Under the pieces are notes generated by a model. The model had not been told where the DNA came from and searched no databases. It worked only from the letters and a program-made list of their open reading frames with translations. Shown piece after piece: positions 8,181 through 30,924 of a stretch of 64,000 bases of DNA (positions are counted from its first letter, which is position 1; every line of letters starts with the position of its first letter). The translations under genes and the position numbers were made by a program. Origin of the DNA: Asparagopsis taxiformis (lineage: Eukaryota > Rhodophyta > Florideophyceae > Bonnemaisoniales > Bonnemaisoniaceae); NCBI GenBank assembly GCA_030407315.1, contig JALQPE010002768.1, positions 1 to 64,000 on the forward strand, read 5' to 3'.

Positions 8181-9674
8181 CTAAGATTTGGTCGTTAGTG
8201 TTGAAAATGACGCTTCAGTACCATGTTGACGATAGTCTCTGAGATTCAAAGTGGGGCGGCGACCTTCTTCGAGCTTGAGAAGAACGTCATATCCAGGTTT
8301 GCAATACATCCTCTTCATCTGTTTGTGCGATACTCTCAACATAGAAATGTAGCGAAGGTCGAAAACTTGAACTGAGATTGGAGCACTTCTGCGCAGAATG
8401 AGGAAGTATAATTTGACCAATATCAGTACGGCAACAGAGAAGGCAAGACAGACGACGGCGTACAATTGAATTTCAGTGATGTTCGAATCTGCCAGCGGTA
8501 TTTTAACGTTGACTTCCGGAGCGCTCTCCGAAGACAGTCGTTCGTCGATTGAACTCATCATATGGAAACCAAACGAAAGCGATTTATTCGATTGCTTTCC
8601 CATGAAGAAGTGAAGTTTCGACAATGCATGATACACTTTCGCTGCCGCAAGCTCCGGTAGATCTTCCGCAATTTCCACCCTTGGCACATTTGACTCTGCT
8701 GCTCGTGTGTCAGATAACTGACCCTCCTCTACCATTGAATATGTTTCAATCTCAAAGAGATTGAGAATTTGCGATGGAAAGCGCGGAGTAAGAACATCCG
8801 TGTCATCCTCGAGACGTGTCGGAGAGAACACATCGGAGAAATGAAAGACTTGGAAAAAAATGCGTCCTATTTTTCCGTCCCCTTGAAAAAGCATGAAAAT
8901 TGATTCCAGTTGTTCCTCATTGTCCGAGTACTGCCAGTCTCTCAAGATGGAGAATGTCGCGGTGCCCTGCATTCTACCCGTTGAACCATCAGGATTACTT
9001 TGCGAGTCAGGTCGTTCCACAATGGCAGAAAACCTCACTGAGAGCTGTTCTATGCTATCATTTCCATTCCGGAACGTCAACACACCTCTGTCCCGCGACA
9101 GTTTTTCATCGAGAACCTCACCCAACTGAACGGTGTATTTCTCTGAATCCAGAGACATATCTACGAATTTCACGTTGCTCCCCAAATTGTTCGCCGACCC
9201 TGTCAATGGTAACAATCTGTAGCATCCTTCTGTGCCATAGATCGGAAAAGTCAGTCGAGATTTTCCAGTCTGAAAACAACCTTTTCTCTGTTGCGCGGGC
9301 TCAAAGTCTTCGAGCGAAACATCAGCAATATTGACATCCCATCGTTCGTCAACTGTCCAGTTGGCTGGTCGCGTAAGCATCGCGCTTTTTAACGGTCTGA
9401 CGACTGTGTAGAGGGCTCCAATGGACTGGCCCTCGAAGCCAAGTTCAATAGCAATGCCGATTATGAGCACCAAAAAACTGAAAACAACAAAGCTATACTT
9501 GCGTTCTTGTCCTGACACGGGGACATTCTGTCCGGCAAGAAGTTTCCTTCTACATGAGGCGTTGATGAATTCACAGTAGATATGTTGACCAAAGAGCACG
9601 AGCACAATGTCCAAGACGAGTGCCAAAGCGGCGTTAACCTGAAAGCTAGAAAACTTGGCCTCAAGTGGTCTCAT
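8181..9674 (-). CDS. Intact member of a tandem three-TM membrane-protein family, function unknown
   Basis: A 497-residue protein starting at the ATG at 9674-9672. I see three hydrophobic segments: residues about 13-31 (ALALVLDIVLVLFG), about 62-80 (VVFSFLVLIIGIAIELG), and about 425-448 (AVVCLAFSVAVLILVKLYFLIL). Between segments 2 and 3 lie about 340 polar residues with Asn-X-Ser/Thr sites and a GTEGCYR motif, likely lumenal or extracellular. The last about 50 residues after segment 3 are basic and probably cytoplasmic (VQVFDLRYISMLR is the conserved tail motif). Three broken relatives lie downstream on the same strand. I recognise no known family. No splice signals interrupt the frame. Confidence 0.8.
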   Translation of the reverse strand: MRPLEAKFSSFQVNAALALVLDIVLVLFGQHIYCEFINASCRRKLLAGQNVPVSGQERKYSFVVFSFLVLIIGIAIELGFEGQSIGALYTVVRPLKSAMLTRPANWTVDERWDVNIADVSLEDFEPAQQRKGCFQTGKSRLTFPIYGTEGCYRLLPLTGSANNLGSNVKFVDMSLDSEKYTVQLGEVLDEKLSRDRGVLTFRNGNDSIEQLSVRFSAIVERPDSQSNPDGSTGRMQGTATFSILRDWQYSDNEEQLESIFMLFQGDGKIGRIFFQVFHFSDVFSPTRLEDDTDVLTPRFPSQILNLFEIETYSMVEEGQLSDTRAAESNVPRVEIAEDLPELAAAKVYHALSKLHFFMGKQSNKSLSFGFHMMSSIDERLSSESAPEVNVKIPLADSNITEIQLYAVVCLAFSVAVLILVKLYFLILRRSAPISVQVFDLRYISMLRVSHKQMKRMYCKPGYDVLLKLEEGRRPTLNLRDYRQHGTEASFSTLTTKS

Positions 9675-11859: not shown

Positions 11860-12105
11860 GTCTAGACTTACAAGAAATTTCGAACAAATTTCAGTAAATT
11901 GCTTCCTGATAATTTTACCATACTTGGCACTACGTCTAAAACGTTTGTTAGGGTGGTAAATTACAGCGGACTTCTAGTCTGGCCAATTTATTTTGGCAAA
12001 GCCAATTATACTTGAAAAGTGCGTATTTTGAAAACAACAATTTTTGGCGCCATTTTTTTTTGAAATCAAATTTGCTAACTGGCTCAACTGTAACTCGACA
12101 TACAG
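11860..12105 (+). other. Copia leader with possible intron 3' end
   Basis: Untranslated leader after the 5' LTR. I could not match the bases after the LTR to a full-length tRNA primer site. A CTAAC branch-point-like motif at 12075-12079 and an ACAG acceptor-like end at 12102-12105 lie just before the conserved part of the zinc-finger frame, suggesting the 3' end of an intron. The donor is not identified. Confidence 0.35.
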
Positions 12106-12764
12106 TGCCATACAAACGCGCCGCCAACGACCCTGCTGTACTGCGCGAAAAGGCCAACCGGGCCGCTTTACAGCGCGCGCAAACTGAAGCAGCCCGCAAG
12201 GAATTTGAAAAATACTCGTCTCCCGAGGAATCCGAAAGCGAATACGAAAGTGCATCAGAAAGTGACTCAGAAAACGGATCTGAGAGTGAATGCGAGATCC
12301 AGCCAAACAAAGTACCACACAGCTCTATTAGGATCCCACGTGTCAGTCAGCCACCGCCACCCACTACAAAATCCACCAAGCCCAATACTGCGCAGGCCTC
12401 TGACACGTACCGCCGTATAGCCTCCGCCAATCAACCGTCGACAAGAAGCCTGGAGTTTATGCCGGACAACCCGTCCGTAAATACCCACCGTGTTGCCACT
12501 GCGCGAGTACAACGTCAACGTCGCCAAAATAACACACGTATATACTCCTGCGATCTTTGCGTGCGCCAGTTTAGCTCTTCATACCAGTTAAATCAGCACC
12601 TTGCTGGACAGAAGCATAAACGTGTCGAAGCTGCTAGGGAAGCTGCCCAAGCCAACTTACAGTGCCGTCTCTGTAAGATCAAGTTTCTAGATCGTAACAC
12701 ATACGACGTACACTTTGTGTCAAACAAGCACCGTGTTGCTTTGGCCAAGTCCAAACGCAAATAA
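12106..12764 (+). CDS. Copia accessory protein with two U1-type C2H2 zinc fingers
   Basis: The frame is open from 11952 to the stop at 12764 but has no ATG before 12459. Features in order: a basic/alanine-rich segment (KRAAND...REKANRAALQRAQ), an acidic serine-glutamate stretch (SPEESESEYESASESDSE), a proline-rich stretch, and two zinc fingers near the C-terminus. Finger 1 is CDLC...HLAGQKH and finger 2 is CRLC...HFVSNKH. Both have the long His spacing of U1C/JAZ-type fingers, known from double-stranded RNA and DNA binding proteins. If an intron ends at 12105, an upstream exon ending in A would create ATG with the following TG; otherwise translation could start at 12459 and still include both fingers. 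It lies 31 bp before gag. Role in the element is inferred only. Confidence 0.7.
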
Positions 12765-12795: not shown

Positions 12796-14337
12796 ATGCC
12801 TACTTTGGACAATATTAGAGCATCATTGAATAATCTGGATCCTAGCTCTGAAATACAAATTGGTATAAAAGCTGTACTAGCCGTACACGTAAACGCAGAC
12901 CCACAACCTGAAGATGCTGACGTCATCAACGACCTGCGGAGCGACCTTCCAGCTGATGTATTGTATTCAACCGATGCACTCAATGGCCCGCACATGCTCC
13001 ACCGTTTAATCAGAGACTACTTAGCCTTAAAGGGGCTCCAGTATAATCCACACCCAGATAGCAACCGAGTTGTACTGGGTTTACCAGCAATGTTCTATGA
13101 TAATCAGAGAGAAATTGACAGTGCTGTCGCCGCGGTTAAGAACATTGGGAAGACGAACCAAGTCACCGGTGGAAACGGAGAGAATCCAATTAACCGGAAC
13201 GGTGATCAATTCTCCCACTGGAAAATCGCTCACAACATGGCTACTCGCTTCAAGACATCGGAAAAGTTCTCTGGAAAACTCGGAGAAGACTTCACTGAAT
13301 ACCTCAACAATTACTTGGATGCGGCGAACGACTACGAGATGACTCAAGATCAAAGATTCCAACTACTCCACCACCTATTCGACGGAGAAGCAAGAAGGTT
13401 CTTCCGCCAAACAGTTCTTGCCAGAGCACAGACGTTCCCAGTCGCCGTACAAATGATGCAGGAAGAGTTTAACAACATCACCCGTCAGAATAGAATCAGG
13501 AAACATCTACAGCAACTACGCCTGTCAGAGATTGTCAGGATCCGCAAATGCTCTCCCTCGATAGCTCTGGAAGAACTCCGAGATACAATATGTAGACTTG
13601 CTCCTCAAGGACCTCAGATATATCGTAATGAAGAAGCCCAAATTGAATATCTCCAAAAGGCTGTTATCGGACACCAATGGGCTAAAGCCCCTCTATCCCA
13701 GTCTCAATCTGCTATTCCCCGTTGGAACTTTCATCAACTTTTCACTGCACTTGATGCAGCTTGGCTTCAGGAACAGGAAGAAATTGAGGCGAGGAAGCGA
13801 GATAATATCTCTACTTATGGCCATACATCTGATCACCTACCTCCCAGAGTATATTTCCAAGGTCAAGGAATATATGGTCGTCCTCGCAAACCCGGTTCCA
13901 AATCATCAGCTCCTCGAGGATTTTTCAAAAATGACAATACAGTAAGAAGGAGTTCATACACTGATGCTGAGGGTAAGAATGGAATTGACAAGTTTGGAAA
14001 CCCACGCAAATGTCATAACTGCGGAAGCAAAGAACATTTCATCCGGGATTGCACCAAGCCTCGCAACATCATTAACAATGTCGGGAAAATGATTCAAGCG
14101 GACCCACACAATGTTAAGGGCATTCTTTACGAGCTATGCGTACAAGCAGAAGACATAATAGGGAACAATAGTGGAAGTCCTGATGATACCAATATGGATA
14201 ATAACTCTGAGTCAAGTTTTAACAACGAAATAGAAGTAAAACAAGAAGAAGAACTCGTAGAAAACTTCTACAATGAGGACGATTCCAATCTCATGATGGA
14301 AGGATTCCCGGATGTACTGAATCCTGATGATTTTTAG
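12796..14337 (+). CDS. gag: Copia Gag polyprotein
   Basis: A 513-residue protein starting at the ATG at 12796. The central part (about residues 135-330) has the helical, aromatic-rich character of a retrotransposon capsid (FSHWKIAHNMATRFKTSEKFSG, DQRFQLLHHLFDGEARRFF). A single CCHC zinc knuckle CHNCGSKEHFIRDC sits at about residues 406-419, typical of nucleocapsid, which binds the element RNA. The C-terminal about 90 residues are acidic. The protein ends TTT TAG at 14332-14337. Pol continues in the -1 frame from the same place, so Gag is probably made in excess and Gag-Pol by frameshifting. Confidence 0.9.
   Translation: MPTLDNIRASLNNLDPSSEIQIGIKAVLAVHVNADPQPEDADVINDLRSDLPADVLYSTDALNGPHMLHRLIRDYLALKGLQYNPHPDSNRVVLGLPAMFYDNQREIDSAVAAVKNIGKTNQVTGGNGENPINRNGDQFSHWKIAHNMATRFKTSEKFSGKLGEDFTEYLNNYLDAANDYEMTQDQRFQLLHHLFDGEARRFFRQTVLARAQTFPVAVQMMQEEFNNITRQNRIRKHLQQLRLSEIVRIRKCSPSIALEELRDTICRLAPQGPQIYRNEEAQIEYLQKAVIGHQWAKAPLSQSQSAIPRWNFHQLFTALDAAWLQEQEEIEARKRDNISTYGHTSDHLPPRVYFQGQGIYGRPRKPGSKSSAPRGFFKNDNTVRRSSYTDAEGKNGIDKFGNPRKCHNCGSKEHFIRDCTKPRNIINNVGKMIQADPHNVKGILYELCVQAEDIIGNNSGSPDDTNMDNNSESSFNNEIEVKQEEELVENFYNEDDSNLMMEGFPDVLNPDDF
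14331..14337 (+). promoter_or_regulatory. Probable -1 frameshift site at the gag stop codon
   Basis: The gag frame reads GAT GAT TTT TAG. The -1 frame is closed by two TGA codons just upstream (14325-14330) and opens as TTT TTA GAA GGA at 14331. A ribosome must therefore slip back on the TTTTT run at or next to the stop to enter pol. This is not a classical X XXY YYZ heptamer. Slippage of the Phe codon in the P site with the stop in the A site is the simplest reading. Confidence 0.55.
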
Positions 14338-17300
14338 AAGGAGGCAGTTCCCACCATCGTTTTCAAGTACTAGCCAATGAAGAAAACGTTACTGTCCTCC
14401 GGAAAGATCGGTGTAACTCAAATCAAAGCCAAAAAACTAACATAAGCAAGTCAGAGAAGAGTTCCCGAACATATTTCGTTGTTTTTAATCAATCGTTTGT
14501 CAAGAGAAGTGCAGTAAACCACAACAACAAGTATCGTAAAGGAATTACACACCAGAATACTTGGAATGGTGCTTGCATTGATACTGGTGCCCAGAAGACC
14601 GTAATAGGGCGACAGCAAGCACAAGCTTACTGTCGCTTTAAAGGGACCAAGTTTAAAACAGATAATAATAACAACGTTTATAAGTTCGGAACGGACTTAC
14701 AGAAATCATTTGGATCTCTTCAGATCCGAATCCCAACCCCCAACGGATCATTCATCCCAATCCAGGCTGACATAGTCCAAGCTGATGTTCCACTACTTCT
14801 TGGACTAGACATACTAGACAAATTCAAACTCTCAGTTGATACTGTCGAAAATGTTCTAAGATGCAAGGGAACTGACTGGAAGATTCCCCTAACTAGAAAG
14901 CTTGGCCATATCTACTTGGAATGGGATATGCCGAATGAAATTCTGTTCACTAAAAGTGAACTTACCAAACTCCATCGTGGTTTTCGACACCCCGCGACGG
15001 ATAAAATACTTGATTTGATAAAAAGAGCTCGACCTGATGAGCTCAATGAAAATACAAAAAAGATGTTAGAAGAAATTTCCCTTTCATGTGAGACGTGCCA
15101 AAGATTCGGCCCCGCACCTATGCGTCTCAAAGTATCCCTCCCGTCAGAAGACGATCTAGTTTTCGGAGATGAAGTCTCACTAGATCTAATGTTTATCAAC
15201 GGAAAGGCAATATTACACGTAGTTGACACCGCAACCAGATTTTCAACCGCCACCTTCCTGGATGCACATGGCAAGACTTACGGGCAAACCGTAGAAGGGG
15301 TTTGGCTAGCATTCCTAGAATGTTGGTGTACCCTGTACACCGGATATCCTAATCGACTTAGAACTGATTTCGGTTCATTATTCACCTCACCACGTTGGAA
15401 GAATTTCACCGATGAGAATGGCATTACTCTACGAATATCTGGCATCGAAGCTCATAACTCACTAGGGATTGGAGAACGACTCCACGATCCACTAAGGAGA
15501 ATTTATCGTAAGGTACAAGCTGACTTCCCTCAATTGAAAGAAGAAATTATACTTAGACTTGCGGTGAAAGCCATGAATGACACGATAGGAGAAAACGGTC
15601 TGGTTCCATCTCTGCTGGTATTTGGAGTCATTCCACGATTCCCAATTATAAGCAGTAATCTTCCAACCCAAATAGAGAGAATGAAAGCCCTCACCGTAGC
15701 CCAGAAGGAAATGAACTCTATAATTGCAGAAAGAAAGATTAAGACAGCATTACAGAAGAATGTCCCGGCATCATCCGATAGGCACTACTCGATTGGTGAC
15801 GAAGTCCTAGTATATCGAGAAAAGGAGAAACAATGGATGGGACCTTTCCACGTGGTATTCATAGATGACAAACTGATTACTGTACAGAACGCAAGTAGGA
15901 CATATGAAGGGATATTCAATATACAGCAAGTGAAACCATACCAAAGTAATAATTCAGAATCACCTGCTGAAGGAACACCGGAAAGTAATCAGTCCAGTGG
16001 ATCTCTATCCAGCATTGAACCAAGAAATGAGCCTATCGCAACCAATATCACAGAATTGATAAAACATGGTGACCCTCGAGCTAGTAAGTTCTTAGAGGCT
16101 AAAAGAAAGGAAATACAAGGATTGTTGGACCGAAGAACATGGAAAGTGGTGAACAAAGAGAACGTTCCAAAAGATGCCAATATTCTCGGTGGAAGATTCG
16201 TACTCTCCATCAAGGACGAAGGGACAAATAAGGAAGTGTGGAAGGCTAGGTACGTAGTGCAAGGTTTCCGGGATAAAATGAAAACATCCCTTGTACACGA
16301 CAACGCCACCGCAAGACCACATTCAACAAGAATCCTGGTTGGACTGGCGTCATCTTTTGGATTCCGTCTATTCTCTACTGATGTGACCCAAGCATACCTC
16401 CAAAGTTCAGAGAATCTTACCCGTGACGTTTATATCAGGCCTTCCAAAGAATTCGGTTTAAAACCGGACACTATGCTTAAACTCCTGAAACCACTTTACG
16501 GACTTTCCGATAGCGGAGACTATTGGGGGAAAACCATAAGAGATCACATTGTCAATGACCTCGGTATGAAACCCACAACTGTTGACAGTGCGTTCTTTTT
16601 CAAAAGGGGCCACGGGAAACTTTCAGGATTGTGTGTCAGTTACGTGGACGACTCACTACAGGCTGGAGACGAGTCTTTCGCATTACTTTCCCAGAAGACA
16701 GCTCAGAAATTTCAATGCAGAGAACGAGAATGGGATAACACAAATTTCCTAGGAGTACAAATCGAAACGAAACATCCGGAAATCCGAATCCACCAGTACA
16801 AGTACATTCAGAAACTGAAACCCATCTCTACAGATTCTGAATTTCAGATGTTCCGATCATTCCGAGCTAAGCTAGCCTGGATAACTCAGACACGCCCAGA
16901 TATTTCATGTTCAGTGGCCCAATCTACCCAAGTCACTGAAGCAATATTCAAGGCGAATTCCGAAAAGATCATTAAGTCCCTTAATTCGGTATTGAAGCAT
17001 TTACAAAAGACACCATCTTTACCTCTAAGATACCCAAAGCTTCAGATCAATTCTATGAGAATACAGGTATACTCAGATGCATCATTTGCAAATAACCGTG
17101 ACTTATCATCCCAACTCGGATACATCATTTTTCTCACAGATAATTTTTCCCGATGTCAACCTATAATTTGGTCTTCTCATAAGGCTAAAAGAGTCACAAG
17201 ATCAGTCCTTGGGAGTGAGACCTTAGCATTTGCGGATGCATTTGATGCAGCACTTGCCTTACGCCATGACCTTCACAAAATGACGGATATAACATTCCCT

Positions 17301-17564
17301 ATCTTCATGTTAACAGATAGCCTATCTCTCTTCGATGTAATCACCAAATCATCCGTGACTACTGAAAAACGCTTGATGATCGACTTAGAAGTCTTGAAGG
17401 ATGCGTATTCCTCTAGAACGCTGGAGAAAGTTGGATTCATTAAGTCGGAATACAACCCCGCTGACAATTTAACCAAAGTCTCACGTGGGAACTTCCTAGA
17501 ATCAATCCTGAGAACTGCGAACATACAACACCCTGTAGAGCAATGGGTGGATCGTTCATTGTGA
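14331..17564 (+). CDS. pol: Copia Pol polyprotein (protease, integrase, reverse transcriptase, RNase H)
   Basis: About 1077 residues, open from 14331 without an ATG of its own. Aspartic protease: IDTGAQKTVIG at 14578-14610 and LLLGLDILD downstream. Integrase: zinc-binding H...H...C..C (HRGFRHPATD, CETC) then the D-D-E core with DLMFI, RTDFGSLF and GIEAHNSLGIGERLH. Reverse transcriptase: VWKARYVVQGF, DVTQAYLQ, LKPLYGL and the catalytic YVDD at about 16640. RNase H: VYSDASFA and SETLAFADAFDA near the end. The integrase-before-RT order identifies Copia. No stop or frameshift breaks the frame, so the enzyme set looks intact. It ends 28 bp before the 3' LTR. Confidence 0.93.
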   Translation, partial: FLEGGSSHHRFQVLANEENVTVLRKDRCNSNQSQKTNISKSEKSSRTYFVVFNQSFVKRSAVNHNNKYRKGITHQNTWNGACIDTGAQKTVIGRQQAQAYCRFKGTKFKTDNNNNVYKFGTDLQKSFGSLQIRIPTPNGSFIPIQADIVQADVPLLLGLDILDKFKLSVDTVENVLRCKGTDWKIPLTRKLGHIYLEWDMPNEILFTKSELTKLHRGFRHPATDKILDLIKRARPDELNENTKKMLEEISLSCETCQRFGPAPMRLKVSLPSEDDLVFGDEVSLDLMFINGKAILHVVDTATRFSTATFLDAHGKTYGQTVEGVWLAFLECWCTLYTGYPNRLRTDFGSLFTSPRWKNFTDENGITLRISGIEAHNSLGIGERLHDPLRRIYRKVQADFPQLKEEIILRLAVKAMNDTIGENGLVPSLLVFGVIPRFPIISSNLPTQIERMKALTVAQKEMNSIIAERKIKTALQKNVPASSDRHYSIGDEVLVYREKEKQWMGPFHVVFIDDKLITVQNASRTYEGIFNIQQVKPYQSNNSESPAEGTPESNQSSGSLSSIEPRNEPIATNITELIKHGDPRASKFLEAKRKEIQGLLDRRTWKVVNKENVPKDANILGGRFVLSIKDEGTNKEVWKARYVVQGFRDKMKTSLVHDNATARPHSTRILVGLASSFGFRLFSTDVTQAYLQSSENLTRDVYIRPSKEFGLKPDTMLKLLKPLYGLSDSGDYWGKTIRDHIVNDLGMKPTTVDSAFFFKRGHGKLSGLCVSYVDDSLQAGDESFALLSQKTAQKFQCREREWDNTNFLGVQIETKHPEIRIHQYKYIQKLKPISTDSEFQMFRSFRAKLAWITQTRPDISCSVAQSTQVTEAIFKANSEKIIKSLNSVLKHLQKTPSLPLRYPKLQINSMRIQVYSDASFANNRDLSSQLGYIIFLTDNFSRCQPIIWSSHKAKRVTRSVLGSETLAFADAFDAALALRHDLHKMTDITFPIFMLTDSLSLFDVITKSSVTTEKRLMIDLEVLKDAYSSRTLEKVGFIKSEYNPADNLTKVSRGNFLESILRTANIQHPVEQWVDRSL

Positions 17565-18073: not shown

Positions 18074-18078
18074 TGGAC

Positions 18079-18169
18079 GACTGGAAACTTCCAGACGTCT
18101 ACCTAACCCTAAATTAAAATTCTGGTAGAAATTACCTGTAGAATTTTTCTTGTAAAAGTCATTTCCACA
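18079..18169 (-). repeat. Gypsy 3' LTR, second part (after the Copia insertion)
   Basis: The remaining 91 bp of the LTR, from GACTGGAAAC to TTTCCACA, identical to 24875-24965. It includes the palindrome CTGGAAACTTCCAG immediately beside the Copia insertion point and a telomere-like CCTAACCCTAAA at 18102-18113. Confidence 0.92.
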
Positions 18170-18233: not shown

Positions 18234-18240
18234 TATAAAA
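18234..18240 (+). promoter_or_regulatory. TATA box for the antisense accessory gene
   Basis: TATAAAA sits in the GC-rich context GGCCGCGCTCGGTATAAAAGC, 263 bp before the ATG of the histone-tail-like gene and pointing the same way. The LTR promoters face the other strand, so this gene needs its own promoter. Confidence 0.6.
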
Positions 18241-18381: not shown

Positions 18382-18502
18382 CCATCCCACTTCCCGCCTT
18401 CCCTTCGGTCGTCTCTCCGAGCACCCTGCGTAGTCGCGGTCATCGATTTGTTGAGATCTTGCTTACGTGGGCCTTTCGGTACCTGGTGGGTGATCCATTG
18501 AG

Positions 18503-19963
18503 ATGGCCAAGACGAAACAGACCGCAAAGAAGTCGACTGGGGGGACTGCCCCTCGGCAGGAGCTAGCTGCTCGGGCGGCGCGGATTCCCAGACGAGACCC
18601 TCCCGCGGCTCCTGGCACCTACCGTCGCGAGGGCGGCCAGGAGGTACGCTATCGCCCCGGGGAAGCCGTCCCCGCGCGGGCCAACGAGGTTAACTTCGAC
18701 GACAAATCCCATCGGGGAATTCGTCAGAACCTCTTCCGTTGGTTCGGACGTGAAGACGTCCAGAACATCCGCCGCTCCTCCGACCACCGTGGTCGTTTCG
18801 TCGTCGACTTTGGCCGAAATCGTCGCGATCCGTGCCAAGTGACGGCCAGGGAACTAGAGTTCCTCTTCGGGCCTCAGATCGTCGAATTCGCCTCCGATCC
18901 GGCCATCTCCATCCTTACCGCGGAGATGGCTTGTCGTCTCGGTCTCACTGAATCCCACGGTGACACCGAGAAGTACGCCGAATGCCCCGACGACACCGAT
19001 TGGATCATCGAGAAGATCTGGTTGTCGAAGGGAGGTGAGAACGGCGAACTGGAAGGCTGCTTCTATGCCTCCGCCGAAGGGGAGCGAACCGGCCATCGAA
19101 TCGATCTGTATACCATGGTTTTCCGTCAGGTCTCCGAACCGGCGGAGCGCGACGCGGCACTCCAGGAGCAGGATAACCCCTCTCCTGTGACCAGAGGGAA
19201 TGGTCAACCCTCGCGGGTGAGTTTAATAGCCAGTATCGACGCTTGGTGTTACAAGAAACCTGGGAAGAAGAAACGAGTCAATGTCGCCATGGCTCGGGTG
19301 CCCTCCCTCGAAGCCCCCCCATTCTTCGTGGGGACTCCTCGGAACCGCGTGGTGGTACCTGTGCAGGACTTCACCAACAACTGCCTGCGTGCCGCGGCCG
19401 CCAATGGGATCGCTCTCGTGTGCGATTTTAACACGGCCGATAGGTTTTTCCGTCGGGAGCTGGCTCGGGACGAAGAAGAACGCCTTGTTCGAGGTTATTA
19501 TACTAGTGTCGTGGACTTTGGTTCTGTCTCGAAGGCCATCGATGATCGTGCTCCTTCAACGGTGACTCTGCCCCGGGTGGCGATCCCCCATTTCGACCTA
19601 GGAGCCCCAGATTCGCGCTCTAGGCAATGGGCGTGGTTACGGGAGAAACTTTCGAGGGAGCCGGACGTATACGTGGTGCAGGTTTGGAGTCGAGATGGCC
19701 TGAAACACGCCATATGTATCGACTCTCGTACCTGGCCTGGTCTCATCTACGACTCCTCTGAAGCCTTTGTGATGAGTCTAGAGCCTCGGGCATTCTTCTT
19801 ATGTTGTAGCACCAGTAAGTCGTCGGATTTCTCCTCCTTCAACGATCTTCGACGCGTCCAACGGGAGGGTTCGAATCCAGAGGAGAAGCGTGCTAAGCGA
19901 CAGCGCATGAGGAAGCGCGAGAAGGTTCGCAAAGCGAAGATCGACGGTGAGGGGTTGTCTTAG
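18503..19963 (+). CDS. Histone H3 tail-like protein with putative cysteine protease domain, antisense in a Gypsy element
   Basis: A 486-residue protein from the ATG at 18503. After the Met it reads AKTKQTAKKSTGG, against ARTKQTARKSTGG of histone H3. APR and LA.RAAR also match, and YRPG aligns with H3 residues 41-44, so similarity spans about H3 1-50. K4, K9, S10, T11, R17 and R26 positions are kept; R2 and R8 are Lys; K14, K18, K23 and K27 are replaced. The H3 globular fold is absent. From about residue 280 the sequence has QDFTNNC (Cys294), KHAICID (His402) and LIYDSSE (Asp417), an order and spacing fitting a papain-like or transglutaminase-like cysteine protease. The last 30 residues are strongly basic. 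The gene converges on gag-pol with 166 bp between stops. Function as chromatin mimic or protease is inference. Confidence 0.8.
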   Translation: MAKTKQTAKKSTGGTAPRQELAARAARIPRRDPPAAPGTYRREGGQEVRYRPGEAVPARANEVNFDDKSHRGIRQNLFRWFGREDVQNIRRSSDHRGRFVVDFGRNRRDPCQVTARELEFLFGPQIVEFASDPAISILTAEMACRLGLTESHGDTEKYAECPDDTDWIIEKIWLSKGGENGELEGCFYASAEGERTGHRIDLYTMVFRQVSEPAERDAALQEQDNPSPVTRGNGQPSRVSLIASIDAWCYKKPGKKKRVNVAMARVPSLEAPPFFVGTPRNRVVVPVQDFTNNCLRAAAANGIALVCDFNTADRFFRRELARDEEERLVRGYYTSVVDFGSVSKAIDDRAPSTVTLPRVAIPHFDLGAPDSRSRQWAWLREKLSREPDVYVVQVWSRDGLKHAICIDSRTWPGLIYDSSEAFVMSLEPRAFFLCCSTSKSSDFSSFNDLRRVQREGSNPEEKRAKRQRMRKREKVRKAKIDGEGLS

Positions 19964-20129: not shown

Positions 20130-23100
20130 TTAATGCAGTAGATGTAGTGGACGCCTACGGAAGAGAAGTAGACGTCTCGCATGGATGGGGCGACGTGATA
20201 CCTTCGCTTGGTCGGAAGCGAGTAGGTATCGGGGGTGGCTAGCTTGGATGACCTTAAACGGTCCGTACCACTTGGTTTCGAACAACGACAACTTCGTCGC
20301 TCCGAAAGCTTTCCCTTTCGCCACAAGGACCTCGTCGCCTACCTCGAACCGACGTTCTGGTAGATGAGCTCGAGCTTGGGTATTGCGTAGATGCATTTCT
20401 ACCCTGCTCGCTCGTTGCGACTGGAGAGCTAACATCTCAAACAGTCGGGATTGAGGGTCCAGCGGACGGTCCAGAAGCGGTGACGGGTCGTGGGCGACTA
20501 CCCTTGGTACCACTCCGTACATCAGTTCGAAGGGTGAGGTGCCGCCTGTCATGCAACGACGGCGGTAACCGTAGAGCACGTGCGGGAGTAGGATGTCCCA
20601 TTCGACCGAGTCCCTGCCTTTAACTTTGGCTAAGGACCTCTTGATGGTCCCTACCATTCGCTCGGCTCGCCCATTAGACATGGGGGAGTACTCAAGCACG
20701 GTCTTCCAATCGATCCCGTTGCTCTTCATGAAACTCGCGAGTGTCGCAGCTGTGAAACACCCCGCATTGTCGGATACAATGGTAGTTGGGGGGCCGAACG
20801 AGTAGATGATCTCATCCTTCACGAAATTGAGTACGACATCCGCGGTACTAGCTGCGGTGGCCCTGGCGATAGGCCAGCCAGTGAGGTGTTCCACAGCGAT
20901 GAGAAGGAATCGGTTACCTTTGGCCGTGCGCGGGAGCGGCCCCGCAAAGTCGATGGAAAACGTGTGGAAAAGGCCTGTCAACGGCTGACTCAGGGTAGTC
21001 CGATAGCGGGGTACCGGTTTATTCTTCTGACACCCCTCACAACTCCGAACGTAGTCGTGAATGTCCTTGCCCATACGCGGCCACCAGTAACGTTCCACAA
21101 TAAACTGGCGGGTCGAGGCAGCGTCCCAATGACCGATGTTGTCGTGGAACATTTGCAGGATCTTGATTCGGAGCGGAATCGGTGCGACTACCTTGGGTCC
21201 CAACGCGGTGCGGCGAAAGAGCTGGTCTTCCCAGACTAAGAAATCCTTGGAACTCCGTCGAACCTTTTGTCGAGCTAGGCCCTCTACTTCGGGTTCAGCT
21301 CCACCCCGTAAGTATTGGAACACTGTGACTAGGTCAGGTTCTATGCGGAGGGCTTCTGGAATAGCAAGCAGGGCGAGGTCGCCCTCATCTTCTCCTGACC
21401 CCGGAGCGGTATGGGTTTGTTCTAGACGGGACAGAAAGTCTGCAGCGGAGTTCTGTTTTCCCGGCCTGAACGATATGACGAAGTCGTATTCCGCGAGGAA
21501 GTCGAGCCAACGGGCAAGTCGCCCGTGTATATCTTTCTTCTGGAATGCGTATTGCAACGCTTGGTGATCCGTCATCAACTTGAAGGGCTGGGTGGACAGA
21601 AGGTAGAGTCGGAATTTCTTCAGTGCAAAGATAACTGCTAGGGCTTCCCGTTCGCATGCCGAATATTTTCTTTCAGCCGTATTCATCGTCCTACTCGCGA
21701 ATTGAATAGGATGAATACGCCCGTCTTCCTTCTTCTGCGCTAGTACAGCTCCGACGGATACGGAGGAGGCATCTGTCTCGACTAAGAAGGGAGTATCGAA
21801 GTCAGGGAAGGAAAGGACGGGAGCCGAAGTTAGTTTTTCCTTCAGCGTCCCGAAGGCTTGATTCATCTCCTCTGTCCATTCGAAGGAACGTCCAGAAGAG
21901 GTATATGGGAATAGAGAAGCCGAGATGTCAGCAAACCCCTTAATGAACCGGCGATAGTAGCCCGCCAAACCGAGGAAGCTGCGGAGCTCGGAAGCGGTTT
22001 GCGGCGGAGCTACATCTCTAATGGCAGAAATCTTGGCGGGGTCTACTGACACCCCATCGTGGCTAACGATGTGACCAAGCAACTCGACTTTAGGTTGAGC
22101 GAAGAAGCATTTGACGACCTTCAGCTTCAAACCCCTCTGACTTAGGGACTCGAAAAGGATACGAAGGTGGGAAACGTGTTCTCCCATGTTTTTAGAGAAT
22201 ACCACAACATCGTCGAGATACGCTCGGACGAATGGTAGATCCTTGACCATCTCATCCATCATCCTCTGGAAGGTGGACGGGGCATTCATTAGTCCAAACG
22301 GCATAACTTCGAACTTGTAGGTACCGTAACGGGTGACGAAAGTCGTCATCTCCTTGCAAGCGGTATCCATTCGAATCTGCCAATACCCAGAGAAGAGATC
22401 GAGAGTGGTGAAGAGGGAATTTCCTCCCAATTCATCGAAAATCTCTTCGATCCTGGGTAAGGGCCAACGATCGGGTTTGATCTTCCGATTCAGGATGCGG
22501 TAGTCGACGCAGAAACGAGGTTTCCCGTCCTTCTTCGTAGCAATGACCACCGGGAAGGACCATGCTGATGAGGCCGGGGTGATGATTCCCGCTTCCAGCA
22601 TGCGATCGATTTCGGATCGTACTACCTCGTTGTGTTTCGGCGACAACCGACGAGGTTGGTGGTAGACAGGGGTGTCGTCTTCCAGCTCAAAAGAGTGTTT
22701 AACAGGGACGTCGGCTTTCCTGAGATCGTGAAAGGACCAAGCTACGATTCCGTAGTCCTTCAACGACTCCGATATAACTCGTCTATCCGAGGGTGATAGA
22801 TGCACGAGTTTTTCTTCGATGAGCTTGTCATGCTCTTCGGTCTCAGAGAGGTCGCTCTCCTCTTCGACCGCTAATTGCGGCTTGGCGAAATCAACGTGGG
22901 CGACAATTAGCGTACCTTCGTCTTCTTCGCCTGAAGAAGTCGTCGAGGCTCCTTCATCGGTGCTGAGAGACGTGAAGTCTTCGCTTTCACTACCACCCTG
23001 AGGAAGGAAGTGGAGGCCGTTATCGGGTTCTAGCCCAATCCGCGCCGATTCTTCGCCGAGTTGTATCTCAACGACTCGACTCCCAATATCCAGTTTAGCC

Positions 23101-24674
23101 TGTAGATCTTCCATGGCCGGTAAGCCGATGATGAGGCCGATAGGTGCCTTTTCAATGGTGAGGAAATCCATGGAAGCTGTGAGGTTTCCAAAGGTTATGG
23201 GCACATCTTTGACACGGCCAATGCAGTTGGCGCTCGACCCATCTGCGACCGTAATCCTCTGCTTGGTACGCTTCGGCAGGAGGCACAACTGACGGGCGAG
23301 ATCAGCAGAGATGATATTGGGTATAGCCCCAGTATCCAGGAGCGCGCGAATCTCTCGACCATAGATACGAACTGGCGCGACCATCAGAACTCGTTTGTTC
23401 TGAACGTTTAAGGCTGGCGCAGCCTTACTCGGTCGGCGATTCTTAAGAGGCGAGAAGAGACGTCGCATCTCTTTGGCGGCTTCGGCGGCGTCTCCACGAA
23501 GGAGTTGGCCGAAAGTGAGGCCTGTGGACGCATTAGCGAGCTCTCCAACAACGTCGTACTTTCCGACGTGATCTTGAAGAACCTTCTTGGAAGTGTTCTT
23601 TTTCTTCGCCTTGCGGTTTTTCTTCCCTCGGATGGGAAGAGGCTCCAGTTGCAAGGGAGGTAGGATACGACCAGGCGTTGGGTGCATCAGGTTTTCAGTG
23701 TTGATCCCCTCAGCTCGACGTTGCTTCGGAACCGCTTCTCCCGTCATGGTACGTTTCGTAGTACCGACAACATCGGGAGTTGTGGTTACAACGGTAACTT
23801 GATTCGAACGGGAGGAATCGTCCCTGCCGGTAGAGGGGCTCCTCTGCTTCTCCGTGCCCTTCTGGCGACTATAGCAAGTCGCGACAGAATGACCCAGACG
23901 ACCACATTTCGAGCAACGGGTGTCTCGGTGAGGGTTTTCGGGGCAGGAGTTAGCCCCATGTCCCGGTTTCTGACAGAAGGAGCAAGGACGAGGCGTTTCG
24001 CGCCTATCCGATGAGGATGCTCCTGTCTGCTTGCGGACGATGAGGGAGAGCTCAGCGAGTTGCTCCGCTAGCTTGTCCACCTTGTTCTCCACCTGTGACG
24101 TTCGTGCGTCGGGACGGTTCAGGACCCGCTTAGATCCAAAGGTGGAATCGAGCGGGTGCTGTTTCCCTGTATCGTGATATGGGACGGAAGAGAGGAAGTC
24201 CTTGCGACCCTGGTCGAAGTCACGCACCACTTTCTTGAGGTCGGTGTAGTGCGTGGCACCGCGATAGATCGCGAACTGGGCCAGTTCTGGGAAGCGGGAG
24301 AGTGCATTCCTCAGAAGGCCAAACTTAGCTTCATCATTGAAAGATGCCTTTTCGAACAGACGATCCATAGTTTTGAGCGAGCCGACAAGATCCTCGGGAT
24401 CCAGTACCGCGTTGATGGCACTGCGGATATCGTCACTCGGCTCTGTCTTGACTCCGAAACGATCGATGAAGGCCTTCTTGACGAGGGCGTAGTTCATAGC
24501 CTCTTCCGTCAGCGCTCCATCCTTGGCGAACGTTTCGTAGTAGAAGTCGAATGCCTCGCCCTCGAGGTGGGCGAGGAGTTCGAGAGCTTTCTCCTCGTCG
24601 GACTTGCCGCGCATAGCGACGTTCTCGAAGAAGAAGAAGAACTTCTTGACGTCGGAAGAGAGAGAGCCGTCCAT
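20130..24674 (-). CDS. gag-pol: Gypsy Gag-Pol polyprotein
   Basis: One open frame of about 1514 residues counted from the ATG at 24674 (MDGSLSSDVKKFF); an ATG at 24734 straddling the LTR end would add 20 residues. Capsid-like Gag fills roughly residues 1-190. Two CCHC knuckles follow at about 230-266 (CSFCQKPGHGANSC, CSKCGRLGHSVATC). Aspartic protease: LLDTGAIPNII near 445. Reverse transcriptase: about 690-860 with YLDDVVVFS near 818. RNase H: ETDASSVSVGAVLAQ near 960. Integrase: zinc motif (H...H...C..C, HDNIGHW, CEGCQKNK) near 1180-1215 and D-D-E residues in SIDFAGPLP, VSDNAGCF and NGRAERM. The C-terminus has the WYGPFKVI core of a GPY/F module, with no chromodomain recognised. RT before integrase defines Gypsy. 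No stop or frameshift separates Gag from Pol. Confidence 0.92.
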   Translation of the reverse strand: MDGSLSSDVKKFFFFFENVAMRGKSDEEKALELLAHLEGEAFDFYYETFAKDGALTEEAMNYALVKKAFIDRFGVKTEPSDDIRSAINAVLDPEDLVGSLKTMDRLFEKASFNDEAKFGLLRNALSRFPELAQFAIYRGATHYTDLKKVVRDFDQGRKDFLSSVPYHDTGKQHPLDSTFGSKRVLNRPDARTSQVENKVDKLAEQLAELSLIVRKQTGASSSDRRETPRPCSFCQKPGHGANSCPENPHRDTRCSKCGRLGHSVATCYSRQKGTEKQRSPSTGRDDSSRSNQVTVVTTTPDVVGTTKRTMTGEAVPKQRRAEGINTENLMHPTPGRILPPLQLEPLPIRGKKNRKAKKKNTSKKVLQDHVGKYDVVGELANASTGLTFGQLLRGDAAEAAKEMRRLFSPLKNRRPSKAAPALNVQNKRVLMVAPVRIYGREIRALLDTGAIPNIISADLARQLCLLPKRTKQRITVADGSSANCIGRVKDVPITFGNLTASMDFLTIEKAPIGLIIGLPAMEDLQAKLDIGSRVVEIQLGEESARIGLEPDNGLHFLPQGGSESEDFTSLSTDEGASTTSSGEEDEGTLIVAHVDFAKPQLAVEEESDLSETEEHDKLIEEKLVHLSPSDRRVISESLKDYGIVAWSFHDLRKADVPVKHSFELEDDTPVYHQPRRLSPKHNEVVRSEIDRMLEAGIITPASSAWSFPVVIATKKDGKPRFCVDYRILNRKIKPDRWPLPRIEEIFDELGGNSLFTTLDLFSGYWQIRMDTACKEMTTFVTRYGTYKFEVMPFGLMNAPSTFQRMMDEMVKDLPFVRAYLDDVVVFSKNMGEHVSHLRILFESLSQRGLKLKVVKCFFAQPKVELLGHIVSHDGVSVDPAKISAIRDVAPPQTASELRSFLGLAGYYRRFIKGFADISASLFPYTSSGRSFEWTEEMNQAFGTLKEKLTSAPVLSFPDFDTPFLVETDASSVSVGAVLAQKKEDGRIHPIQFASRTMNTAERKYSACEREALAVIFALKKFRLYLLSTQPFKLMTDHQALQYAFQKKDIHGRLARWLDFLAEYDFVISFRPGKQNSAADFLSRLEQTHTAPGSGEDEGDLALLAIPEALRIEPDLVTVFQYLRGGAEPEVEGLARQKVRRSSKDFLVWEDQLFRRTALGPKVVAPIPLRIKILQMFHDNIGHWDAASTRQFIVERYWWPRMGKDIHDYVRSCEGCQKNKPVPRYRTTLSQPLTGLFHTFSIDFAGPLPRTAKGNRFLLIAVEHLTGWPIARATAASTADVVLNFVKDEIIYSFGPPTTIVSDNAGCFTAATLASFMKSNGIDWKTVLEYSPMSNGRAERMVGTIKRSLAKVKGRDSVEWDILLPHVLYGYRRRCMTGGTSPFELMYGVVPRVVAHDPSPLLDRPLDPQSRLFEMLALQSQRASRVEMHLRNTQARAHLPERRFEVGDEVLVAKGKAFGATKLSLFETKWYGPFKVIQASHPRYLLASDQAKVSRRPIHARRLLLFRRRPLHLLH

Positions 24675-24715
24675 CTTAGCAGTGGATGGACCCGCCTGCT
24701 GGTTCGGGTCGTCGG

Positions 24716-24733
24716 CCCTCCACAAGAGTACCA
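24716..24733 (-). other. Gypsy primer-binding-site candidate
   Basis: Immediately inside the 5' LTR the minus strand reads TGGTACTCTTGTGGAGGG. The TGG start fits pairing with the CCA end of a tRNA. I cannot assign the tRNA; TGGTA is shared with initiator-Met sites but the rest is not a clear match. The last A of the LTR plus TG of this site form an ATG in the gag-pol frame. Confidence 0.45.
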
Positions 24734-24965
24734 TGTTGTACGTGGCCACGGGACGGGGAGTGAAACGGTGTAAAATGTAGAAACGTAGATAGATTGATTT
24801 TTACTAAGTCTAGCTTATCTCCCTCTAGGTTATTCCGACCGCTGGGAGCTGTATTTAGCTTCCTACGGTTGGACGACTGGAAACTTCCAGACGTCTACCT
24901 AACCCTAAATTAAAATTCTGGTAGAAATTACCTGTAGAATTTTTCTTGTAAAAGTCATTTCCACA
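24734..24965 (-). repeat. Gypsy 5' LTR, intact 232 bp
   Basis: Begins TGTTGTACG and ends TTTCCACA on the plus strand (TG...CA). This uninterrupted copy proves how the left LTR looked before the Copia insertion. In the element's orientation this is the 5' LTR from which gag-pol would be transcribed. The followed GAAAC at 24966-24970 is the target duplication. Confidence 0.92.
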
Positions 24966-24970
24966 GAAAC

Positions 24971-27080
24971 TCGCAATTTTCTTCCGCTGTACTCAGTAGT
25001 GTAAGCAGATTCAGGAACATGTTTGCTTCTGTCAGCAATCGCTGTCTGAATTGGATCCAATTTGGGGAAATATTTCCGTAAAATTTTGTAGATTATTTCA
25101 GTATATCTTTCGTTATATTATGCAAGTTCTATACAGTTGCTAATCCGCTTGGAAACCAAAACATACAAAGTGCAGATGTGCGACTCTCTGACCTCCATCT
25201 CGACCACGGCGGGATACTCTTCTAAACTCATGGACAACGCGACATTCAAGCTCTACCTCCATTTTCACGCTTCTTTTGCTCGACATCAGCAACACGATGC
25301 ATTGTACAATTCACTACATCCAACACCGGAACAACTAGTCCAATTAATCTGAACGCAAGCGACATTCCACAGTATCCGTACAGGTTATTTCACGCATGCA
25401 ATACGGCGAAAATATGTTGCAAATCGGCCTCTTCGACATTGCGATAGATGGAGCACCCCTCACGTAATATAGAACGGTAAAAGTGAAGAAATCATCATCA
25501 CAATAGTCATTACCATGAGGGTGAAAATGGACAAGGCCATCGTTCTTGTGTTCTGTTTGGTTGCTTACTGCGCCGGCCGAAAAGTAGCGGTGGAAACATG
25601 CTAGAGGTTTAAACTGGTTTTCCTTTCCCATTTCATTCTACGTGAGTGTATCGTCAACATTTGCGCCCCTTCTGTCATGGATGTGGAGATGGTTCAGCTG
25701 GAACTAACCGACGGTCTGAAAGTGCGCAATCAATTAAGACACTCACGTCTAGATCCAGGATGTTCGCTAGAGGCTAATGAAGTCATTCATTCCACTTTAG
25801 AACGTCCTACAGCGAACAGATGCCCCATTCTTCCTTTTCGAATGAGGGTTTCTACTTTAAGTATTCATGACATTCGCGGCTGGAAATTCCACCACGAAAC
25901 TCCGCCGGACATACTTGGTTTCTGATGGTGATGAACAATCTAGGTGCATGTGCACGTCGAAAACTTTGCAAACATACAAATGACGTATGAAAAACTTATG
26001 TTCGCCATTCATGACTGATTGGCTTACGTGATCAGAACTATCGTCTTGGCCAGATTTCAGTGATCGAACGGTGGCTTTCTTCCACCGTTGAATACTATTG
26101 GTCCTGTCTTAGTCAATTCAACACCTTACTCCACGCATATTCTAGCAATTTCAGTCATACACACATATCTCACCTATCGATACATACATTTGCCTCCGAG
26201 ATTATTCCTTATATATCGATAATAGCGGCGTGAACCAGTCGCAATTGGAATACAGAATATAGAAAAGTTTTGCAATCTAGATCGCCGAAAACATGCCACC
26301 AGCTCTGGGCTGGAAACGTACGTAGTACTTGGAATGCAACTATATATACTTAATACTGTGTTCCACTAGCAATTAAACAAAGCTAACATATAGTTCTTAA
26401 CGTAATGTAGACCAAATTATCCCTAATTTATGACGATAATCTCTAATATCTCCCAGATTCTAGCGCACCATCTAAATAGCATATGGGAGATTAGGTGTTT
26501 GCAAAAACAACTTGGAATATATACAGTTCCCCTTTAGGATTGCAAATATCGTTTGGACTTTCACAGAAGACCAGTTTGGCCAAGTTCATGAAAGCTCATA
26601 TCAGCTAGAAATGCAGCCTTAGTACTCTGCGAAAATCAGTGTTGACCAGAGCATTCATCTCAGCAAATTGGACGAATCAATCACGTGATTCAGACAGCAA
26701 GATGTACCAGGATCTACACTACTTCAACAAAATCATCCATCACGCACTATTTCTCGTTTTATCAGTGCATCTGCACGCCTTTCGACGGATCGAATCGATT
26801 TGCTTACTTCCCTCCTCCAGGATTATGACAAAAAATTTGTATCCTTTCTGCCTGTTCAGTGGTCTCTTTCATGGGTATTGACTTTTTGCCACACAATCGA
26901 CATTTGATATCGAACCGTCATCATTTCACATGCGCTGAAAGAGCCTCTCAGCCACACAAAAAAATCTTTGACACTTCGCACTCCATCCGACACGTCAACT
27001 CCATGTTGTTAGAATCATCATACATTGATCCTAATCCCATCCCTCTTCCTCAACCGTCGCCTCGGACTTCATGCTCGAAT
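24971..27080. other. Intergenic, no gene seen
   Basis: Host sequence between the Gypsy element and the inverted duplication. AT-rich, with only short open frames of no recognisable kind. No RNA gene or repeat structure was recognised. Confidence 0.45.
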
Positions 27081-27082
27081 TC

Positions 27083-27089
27083 TATAAAA
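27083..27089 (+). promoter_or_regulatory. TATA box of the left secreted-protein gene
   Basis: TATAAAA 111 bp before the ATG at 27200, at the very edge of the duplicated segment. The same box occurs on the minus strand at 30923-30917 before the right copy. Confidence 0.6.
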
Positions 27090-27199
27090 CGCCACCCTCA
27101 CCGCCTCCATCTCTCCCACCCCACCTCCCCATCTCCACAATACACTCCTATCTCACTATCATTCACTTCGAATACTTTTCACACTCTTCCTCACACATC

Positions 27200-27796
27200 A
27201 TGGTTTCCAAATTCTTCTCCATCACCACTATAGCCCTCTTCGTCGCTGCCACTGCTGCAGCTCCCTCACACCACTCCGTCTCGATCCCCAGAAACACCCT
27301 ACCCTCACACATCTCCGCCGAAACTACTCCATCCAAGAGACTCTCCTCCTACCTCTCCCACATCGCTCTCACTGAGCGTAATATCGCTTCTGGAAACGTT
27401 GATGCCGATTCTCTTGACACCTTCCACTCGTTCATCTCTTCGTTCGCTTCCAAGGCTTTCTCCGTCCGTGACCAGAAATCCGGTGTCCTCCATGCCTGTG
27501 CATCGGTCCGCATCGAGTCTGAGATGCCTCGCATGTCCTTCTGCTCTCGTATGGCTGCGAGGAATGATGTTGGTGAGAGGGGACCAATCAAGGCTGTTCA
27601 TGCGGATGTTTCCAAGTTGAATGCTGGTGTGCGCCAGGATGATGAAAGTGATTTTATATTTGTTGATCTGTTTGACGATGATGGGACGACGCTAGAGGAC
27701 CTGGAGAACTGTATGGAGTGCTTTGTGTTCTGTTGTACGAATACGGGACGGGGATCACCGTTCTGTTTGTCTCAGTTTGCGAACCAATGCACGTAA
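27200..27796 (+). CDS. Secreted cysteine-containing protein of unknown function, left copy
   Basis: 198 residues from the ATG at 27200. This start is preferred over upstream in-frame ATGs because it opens a clean signal peptide (MVSKFFSITTIALFVAATAAA) and sits at normal distance from a TATA box. The mature protein has a Ser/His-rich start, a helical middle and a C-terminal cluster with six Cys (ENCMECFVFCC...SPFC...NQCT) plus two earlier Cys, an even number suited to disulphides. The upstream ATGs would make a low-complexity proline-serine extension, which looks non-coding. I recognise no family. A near-identical copy faces it at 30210-30806. Confidence 0.75.
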   Translation: MVSKFFSITTIALFVAATAAAPSHHSVSIPRNTLPSHISAETTPSKRLSSYLSHIALTERNIASGNVDADSLDTFHSFISSFASKAFSVRDQKSGVLHACASVRIESEMPRMSFCSRMAARNDVGERGPIKAVHADVSKLNAGVRQDDESDFIFVDLFDDDGTTLEDLENCMECFVFCCTNTGRGSPFCLSQFANQCT

Positions 27797-28015
27797 ACTG
27801 GAATGGAGAGAAGGGATGTTTGATTCTGTTGGTCCGTCCTGTCGCGTGAGTGGTAGAATATTGAATGCTTTCCACATAGCTAGCTAGAGTGGGAAGGAAT
27901 GTTTGTTTTGATTTGATGTAATGAGGGGATTTACTTTGTAGAGTAGCTGAGATGAATGGGAAGTTGAAACGACGATAAGCTTGGCAGAATGAAGTAAATC
28001 ACCCATTGAATTGTT

Positions 28016-29990: not shown

Positions 29991-30924
29991 AACAATTCAA
30001 TAGGTGATTTACTTCATTTTGCCAAGCTTATCGTCGTTTCAACTTCCCATTCATCTTAGCTACTCTACAAAGTAAATCCCCTCATTACATCAAATCAAAA
30101 CAAACATTCCTTCCCACTCTAGCTAGCTATGTGGAAAGCATTCAATATTCTACCACTCACGCGACAGGACGGACTAACAGAATCAAACATCCCTTCTCTC
30201 CATTCCAGTTTACGTGCATTGGTTCGCAAACTGAGACAAACAGAACGGTGATCCCCGTCCCGTATTCGTACAACAGAACACAAAGCACTCCATACAGTTC
30301 TCCAGGTCCTCTAGCGTCGTCCCATCATCGTCAAACAGATCAACAAATATAAAATCACTTTCATTATCCTGGCGCACACCAGCATTCAACTTGGAAACAT
30401 CCGCATGAACAGCCTTGATTGGTCCCCTCTCACCAACATCATTCCTCGCAGCCATACGAGAGCAGAAGGACATGCGAGGCGTCTCAGACTCGATGCGGAC
30501 CGATGCACAGGCATGGAGGACACCGGATTTCTGGTCACGGACGGAGAAAGCCTTGGAAGCGAACGAAGAGATGAACGAGTGGAAGGCGTCAAGAGAATCG
30601 GCATCAACGTGTCCAGAAGCGATATTACGCTCAGTGAGAGCGATGTGGGAGAGGTAGGAGGAGAGTCTCTTGGATGGAGTAGTTTCGGCGGAGATGTGTG
30701 AGGGTAGGGTGTTTCTGGGGATCGAGACGGAGTGGTGTGAGGGAGCTGCAGCAGTGGCAGCGACGAAGAGGGCTATAGTGGTGATGGAGAAGAATTTGGA
30801 AACCATGATGTGTGAGGAAGAGTGTGAAAAGTATTCGAAGTGAATGATAGTGAGATAGGAGTGTATTGTGGAGATGGGGAGGTGGGGTGGGAGAGATGGA
30901 GGCGGTGAGGGTGGCGTTTTATAG
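29991..30924 (-). repeat. Right arm of the inverted duplication
   Basis: Reverse complement of 27081-28015. The two encoded proteins differ at four of 198 positions, so the duplication is young or kept uniform by gene conversion. Confidence 0.9.
30210..30806 (-). CDS. Secreted cysteine-containing protein of unknown function, right copy
   Basis: 198 residues from the ATG at 30806, with the same signal peptide and C-terminal six-Cys cluster as the left copy. Differences are Asn/His and Thr/Ala in GHVDADSLDAF, Met/Thr in SETPRM and Asp/Asn in RQDNESD. All eight cysteines are unchanged, which suggests both copies are still under constraint, though with so few changes this is weak. The gene is transcribed toward its twin (tail to tail), each with its own TATA box. 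Confidence 0.75.
   Translation of the reverse strand: MVSKFFSITTIALFVAATAAAPSHHSVSIPRNTLPSHISAETTPSKRLSSYLSHIALTERNIASGHVDADSLDAFHSFISSFASKAFSVRDQKSGVLHACASVRIESETPRMSFCSRMAARNDVGERGPIKAVHADVSKLNAGVRQDNESDFIFVDLFDDDGTTLEDLENCMECFVFCCTNTGRGSPFCLSQFANQCT

Follow-up and report, generated by a model that had tools for sequence, protein, structure and literature searches.

Introduction

Plant LTR retrotransposons such as Grande, RIRE2, Retand and PvRetro13 carry, between pol and the 3′ LTR, an antisense open reading frame (ORF) termed aORF-3R, which in Grande (gene23) is reported to have its own promoter and to encode a nuclear protein (PMC7264820, PMC11963269). According to a 2020 account, the aORF proteins have no clear similarity except for an SMC domain, and the same account calls the function of such antisense accessory genes unknown (PMC7264820); a 2025 account names TRP28, SMC and a few others (PMC11963269). 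The word "histone" is absent from the main texts of both papers. The ORF described here, from the red alga Asparagopsis taxiformis, resembles the plant aORF-3R, which are ancient, in its antisense orientation, its position between pol and the 3′ LTR and its many copies, but differs from them in starting with a histone H3 tail and in having no Pfam match.

Mimicry of the H3 tail has been described in viruses, with influenza NS1 (ARSK), SARS-CoV-2 ORF8 (ARKS) and adenovirus protein VII given as examples, and in these cases, as in the present element, the protein of a selfish element copies an H3-tail motif (PMC10208167). The viral motifs given there comprise 4–5 residues, whereas the likeness described below covers 17–26 tail residues, is located at the N-terminus, belongs to a retrotransposon and is conserved over deep divergence. 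The SNAG domain of SNAIL and GFI1 is likewise an N-terminal H3 mimic, docking in LSD1, but shows little literal identity with H3 and sits on transcription factors. Chromodomain integrases of the Ty3 chromoviruses read the H3 tail; those elements are thus tied to the H3-tail system by reading the tail, whereas the present element supplies one. None of the literature matches listed reports a transposable-element protein bearing an H3 tail.

Results

Antisense accessory ORF of a Ty3/gypsy element

The DNA analyzed is a stretch of 64,000 nucleotides (positions 1 to 64,000 of contig JALQPE010002768.1; hereafter designated the window). A minus-strand gag-pol ORF of 1539 amino acids (20130..24749) contains, in the order of its Pfam domains, CCHC (weak), aspartic protease, RVT_1, RNase H, H2C2 and rve integrase, and is flanked by two 96-bp LTRs, the 3′ LTR (18074..18169, minus strand, TG..CA) being 100% identical to the 5′ LTR (24870..24965, minus strand). 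With these LTRs and the PR-RT-RH-INT order, the element is a Ty3/gypsy LTR retrotransposon; its gag-pol has no chromodomain match in Pfam up to E 1, and no clear target-site duplication was seen by eye in its flanks. An ORF of 486 amino acids (18503–19963, plus strand) runs antisense to gag-pol in the interval separating the end of pol from the 3′ LTR, and by this position and its multiple copies it is an aORF-3R. The "retrotransposon gene" recognized in an earlier, sequence-only reading of this DNA thus does lie in a Ty3/gypsy element, but as an antisense accessory ORF and not as a part of gag-pol. An in-frame TGA stop (18491..18493, plus strand) precedes the ORF, separated from its ATG by three codons containing no other ATG, so that translation from an ATG cannot begin before this Met. 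A TATAAA sequence 269 nt before the ATG (18234..18239, plus strand) is, by consensus match only, a candidate for a promoter of the antisense gene.

Other ORFs of the window were also noted. A plus-strand C2H2 zinc-finger ORF (12012–12764; zf-met, E 2.9e-9) lies immediately upstream of a CCHC gag-like ORF (12796–14337) and a Ty1/copia-type pol (14916–17564; rve, RVT_2), and is possibly an extra ORF of that adjoining element. An inverted repeat (27078–28015 and 29991–30928) has 938-nt arms, 99% complementary and spaced by 1975 nt, which overlap near-identical ORFs resembling small secreted proteins. Three minus-strand ORFs with a membrane-protein look (2945–3553, 5910–6596 and 8181–9674) adjoin one another; judged by eye, the first two have near-identical starts and the third is alike in layout.

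H3-like N-terminus and its occurrence in the genome

The accessory protein begins MAKTKQTAKKSTGGTAPRQELAARAAR, in which the initiator Met is followed by equivalents of H3 residues 1–26 (18503..18583, plus strand). In a phmmer search of PDB sequences, its residues 1–90 aligned to H3 with an E value of 2.7e-7, and residues 2–18 are identical to H3 residues 1–17 at 14 of 17 positions. At the sequence level, this likeness is beyond chance, in agreement with the sequence-only reading that the ORF starts with an H3 tail. The absence of a histone fold after the tail, also proposed there, was borne out as well, the H3 match being confined to the N-terminal 90 residues and the protein matching no Pfam family up to E 1. 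A proposed extension of the likeness to a YRPG motif is present in lineage A, the lineage of the window copy, but adds little, because it is confined to this lineage and has no counterpart in the three other tail-bearing lineages described below.

A search of the host assembly (141.5 Mb in 3156 contigs), whose RuBisCO large subunit looks red-algal, gave at least 93 segments matching the accessory protein, and six copies, including that of the window, are identical at all 486 residues. We examined 29 pol loci, and in 22 of them an accessory ORF lies convergent to pol, no more than 3.5 kb away (the others being C2436, C2802, C706, C1967, C61, C2018 and C704). Among the 52 A- and B-type loci fetched (L001–L030 and L061–L082), 51 retain the tail or a mutated remnant of it. 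L030 has no tail match and matches residues 194–485 only; L009, L073 and L077 have only the later part of the tail in frame, and a lost Met, stops or substitutions occur in single copies (L015, L068, L069, L074, L078 and others).

Lineage B (contig C436 and others) encodes a protein that begins MARTNQTAKRSTGGRAPRK and has a body 40% identical to that of lineage A. On C436, its ORF is antisense to and adjoins a Ty3 pol sharing 55% identity with that of the window over 913 residues, and the long repeats there are 99.2% identical over 253 columns; the integrase piece has no chromodomain match. The LTR length differs between the two elements, the repeats of the lineage B element (L061/L084) being about 253 bp and those of the window element 96 bp. 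Two proteins from ENA contigs, P0002 and P0003, carry the tails AKTKQTAQKSTGGRIPRKQVATKAAR and AKTKQTARRSTGGRQAR after 16 and 27 predicted residues, respectively, although the first Met in each may not be the true start. After removal of the tails, the body of P0002 matched a profile of A and B with an E value of 6.1e-24 (best of 1000 shuffles, 0.089), and that of P0003 matched a profile of A, B and P0002 with an E value of 1.3e-9 (best of 1000 shuffles, 1.4). The bodies of all four are homologous even without their tails. Their C-terminal domains are highly diverged, those of P0002 and P0003 sharing 21–26% identity with one another and with those of A and B (21–36% over all four lineages).

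With P0002 as a query, we found a further family in the host genome, designated family C (e.g., L097 on C2376 and L098 on C194), which consists of multi-copy ORFs that share the C-terminal domain and do not encode an H3 tail; seven of the copies are free of stops and match at 97–100% along the full 385 residues. Thus, tail-less relatives, which would speak against a functional tail, do exist as a paralogous family, while the A and B loci nearly all keep the tail or its remnant. In a six-sequence tree, family C, P0002 and P0003 form one group and are separated from A and B (support 97; only 43 for the pairing of P0002 with C), a topology that would fit either a loss of the tail in family C or more than one gain.

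Tail residues conserved among four lineages

In lineages A, B, P0002 and P0003, to which the comparison is limited, ten tail residues are identical (H3 numbering): A1, T3, Q5, T6, A7, S10, T11, G12, G13 and R17. Position 4 is occupied by K, N, K and K in this order, position 9 by K, R, K and R, and position 14 by T, R, R and R, K14 being lost in all four. Conservation reaches R17 in the four lineages and about A25–R26 in A, B and P0002. The earlier proposal that K4 and K9, and the first 12 residues as a whole, are the part that matters is not supported on either point, since lineage B has N4 and R9, P0003 has R9, and the agreement continues to R17. The agreed positions are nevertheless broken in single copies: L014 has G12E in an ORF that is otherwise intact, G12 is altered also in L067, L070, L080 and L082, and changes affect Q5 in L022, A1 in L027 and L065, and A7 in L071 and L079. 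The tails are identical to H3 at 12–14 of 17 positions and to each other at 12–14 of 17, equally near, which would be expected if the tails are matched to H3 itself.

The pattern of agreement bears on the kind of partner. A simple methyl-lysine decoy for K4 and K9 is disfavoured, both positions varying between lineages and K14 being lost. With A1, T3, Q5–A7 and S10–G13 agreeing, a partner that recognizes either Thr/Ser residues or the backbone together with the free N-terminus would be likelier than a methyl-lysine reader. The same pattern makes it improbable that the tail is only a nuclear import signal, as in H3. Importins bind H3 tails, which would suit such a role, but it is the uncharged residues T3, Q5, T6, A7 and S10–G13 that are kept, while basic residues vary and K14 is missing throughout. 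The protein, moreover, already has a basic C-terminus, a Lys/Arg-rich segment (19871..19939, plus strand) that is NLS-like by composition, and similar basic ends occur in P0002, P0003 and family C. A nuclear location as such has a precedent in the antisense protein of maize Grande, documented as nuclear (PMC7264820).

Selection on the tail

Substitutions between lineage A and five B copies were counted by the NG86 method. The proportion of nonsynonymous differences (pN) was 0.16–0.19 for codons 2–18 and 0.18–0.20 for codons 2–27, as against 0.56–0.61 for the next 34 codons (28–61) and 0.40–0.50 for the rest of the ORF, whereas synonymous differences (pS) were saturated throughout (0.67–0.84; 0.67–0.83 in the tail and 0.78–0.83 for codons 2–27). 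In the alignment of A with L061, the tail is the window of lowest pN (rank 1 of 427 for 26 codons and 1 of 436 for 17 codons). Between these lineages, the H3 tail has thus been preserved by selection while the remaining protein changed almost beyond recognition, and the earlier suggestion that a retroelement captured the 5′ end of an H3 gene is supported. Comparison with two of the three canonical H3 loci of the host gave a pN of 0.20–0.21 and a pS of 0.68–0.99; synonymous sites are saturated here too, which argues against a recent recapture and for an old capture kept at the protein level.

Conservation of the DNA rather than of the protein, for example, because the gag-pol transcript carries a regulatory signal at its 3′ end, might be considered, the ORF lying inside the 3′ region of the element and perhaps belonging to that transcript; the saturated synonymous sites of the tail (pS 0.67–0.83) contradict this explanation and leave it hardly credible. 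A one-off chance capture or chance resemblance having no function would agree with family C doing without the tail. It would also agree with the recent A copies, which, taken alone, show no extra constraint on the tail: pN/pS was 0.42 in the tail and 0.19 in codons 28–486 (28 pairwise comparisons among 8 distinct copies with an intact ORF; only 8 tail codons vary, 4 of these nonsynonymously), contrary to the expectation that selection among such copies would favour the tail. Nevertheless, chance is contradicted by the presence of the tail in four deeply diverged lineages and by its lowest pN at saturated pS, and we regard it as very improbable.

C-terminal domain

The C-terminal domain (19367..19822, plus strand) contains Cys294 (19382–19384), His402 (19706–19708) and Asp417 (19751–19753), all encoded on the plus strand and invariant in the window ORF, P0001, P0002 and P0003; the three residues align in family C too. 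Structural matches to papain-like proteases were weak and came from a low-confidence model (mean pLDDT of the models, 35 and 38). The proteins of this domain that we searched gave no match above noise in Pfam, NCBIfam or PDB sequences, an absence from libraries that does not exclude a papain-like family, and the best PHROG match for L098 (E 0.027) was to a PHROG of unknown function. The domain is possibly papain-like.

If so, the tail might be a substrate or pseudosubstrate of its own protein, the domain clipping, deamidating or transamidating H3 tails and the protein's own start being self-processed or autoinhibitory. Consistent with this are the conservation of Cys294, His402 and Asp417 along with the tail in A, P0002 and P0003, the identity of Q5, T6 and A7 in the four lineages, and the weak protease-like matches just described. 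We nevertheless consider it unlikely, given the lack of library matches above noise, the low pLDDT, the Phe found at the Cys position in L061, the longest open B copy, and family C, which has the domain without the tail; the domain, accordingly, does not require the tail, and the two are separable.

Discussion

Taken together, the conserved N-terminus suggests, with a probability of roughly 60%, that the accessory protein uses H3 mimicry to dock on host factors that bind the H3 tail. Presumably, the initiator Met preceding Ala would be removed, exposing Ala1, and the protein would enter the nucleus, where the exposed tail could dock on factors reading or modifying the H3 N-terminus; the body might then act on the docked factors or on chromatin to the benefit of the element, through escape from silencing or through positioning. 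As proposed in the sequence-only reading, the tail may serve as a decoy or tether. PHD-, LSD1-, haspin- and Aurora-type proteins recognize the free N-terminus and backbone of H3 or its Thr/Ser sites, and partners of these types would be the likelier ones. The host genome has three matches to SWIRM, which occurs in LSD1-type and other proteins. Of the alternatives, an own-substrate role of the tail or an H3-modifying enzyme comes first, followed in falling order by the import signal, chance and constraint on the DNA.

More tentatively, the docking may be part of a counter-silencing weapon, in which the retrotransposon lineage has kept the captured H3 tail over very long periods as an address label and the fake N-terminus of a papain-like enzyme draws readers, writers and erasers, disabling or redirecting them. 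Elements that read the H3 tail probably coexist with the H3-tailed element in the host genome, because chromodomain matches are numerous there (1826 candidates, with many of the 150 scored lying in open frames of more than 1100 amino acids).

The accessory gene described here carries a built-in functional clue, copying the part of H3 where silencing marks are written. If its protein binds H3-tail factors, a retrotransposon would, like viruses, fight or use chromatin by histone mimicry, and the fixed and free positions of the tail would then constitute a natural mutational scan of the H3 residues that the partner needs.
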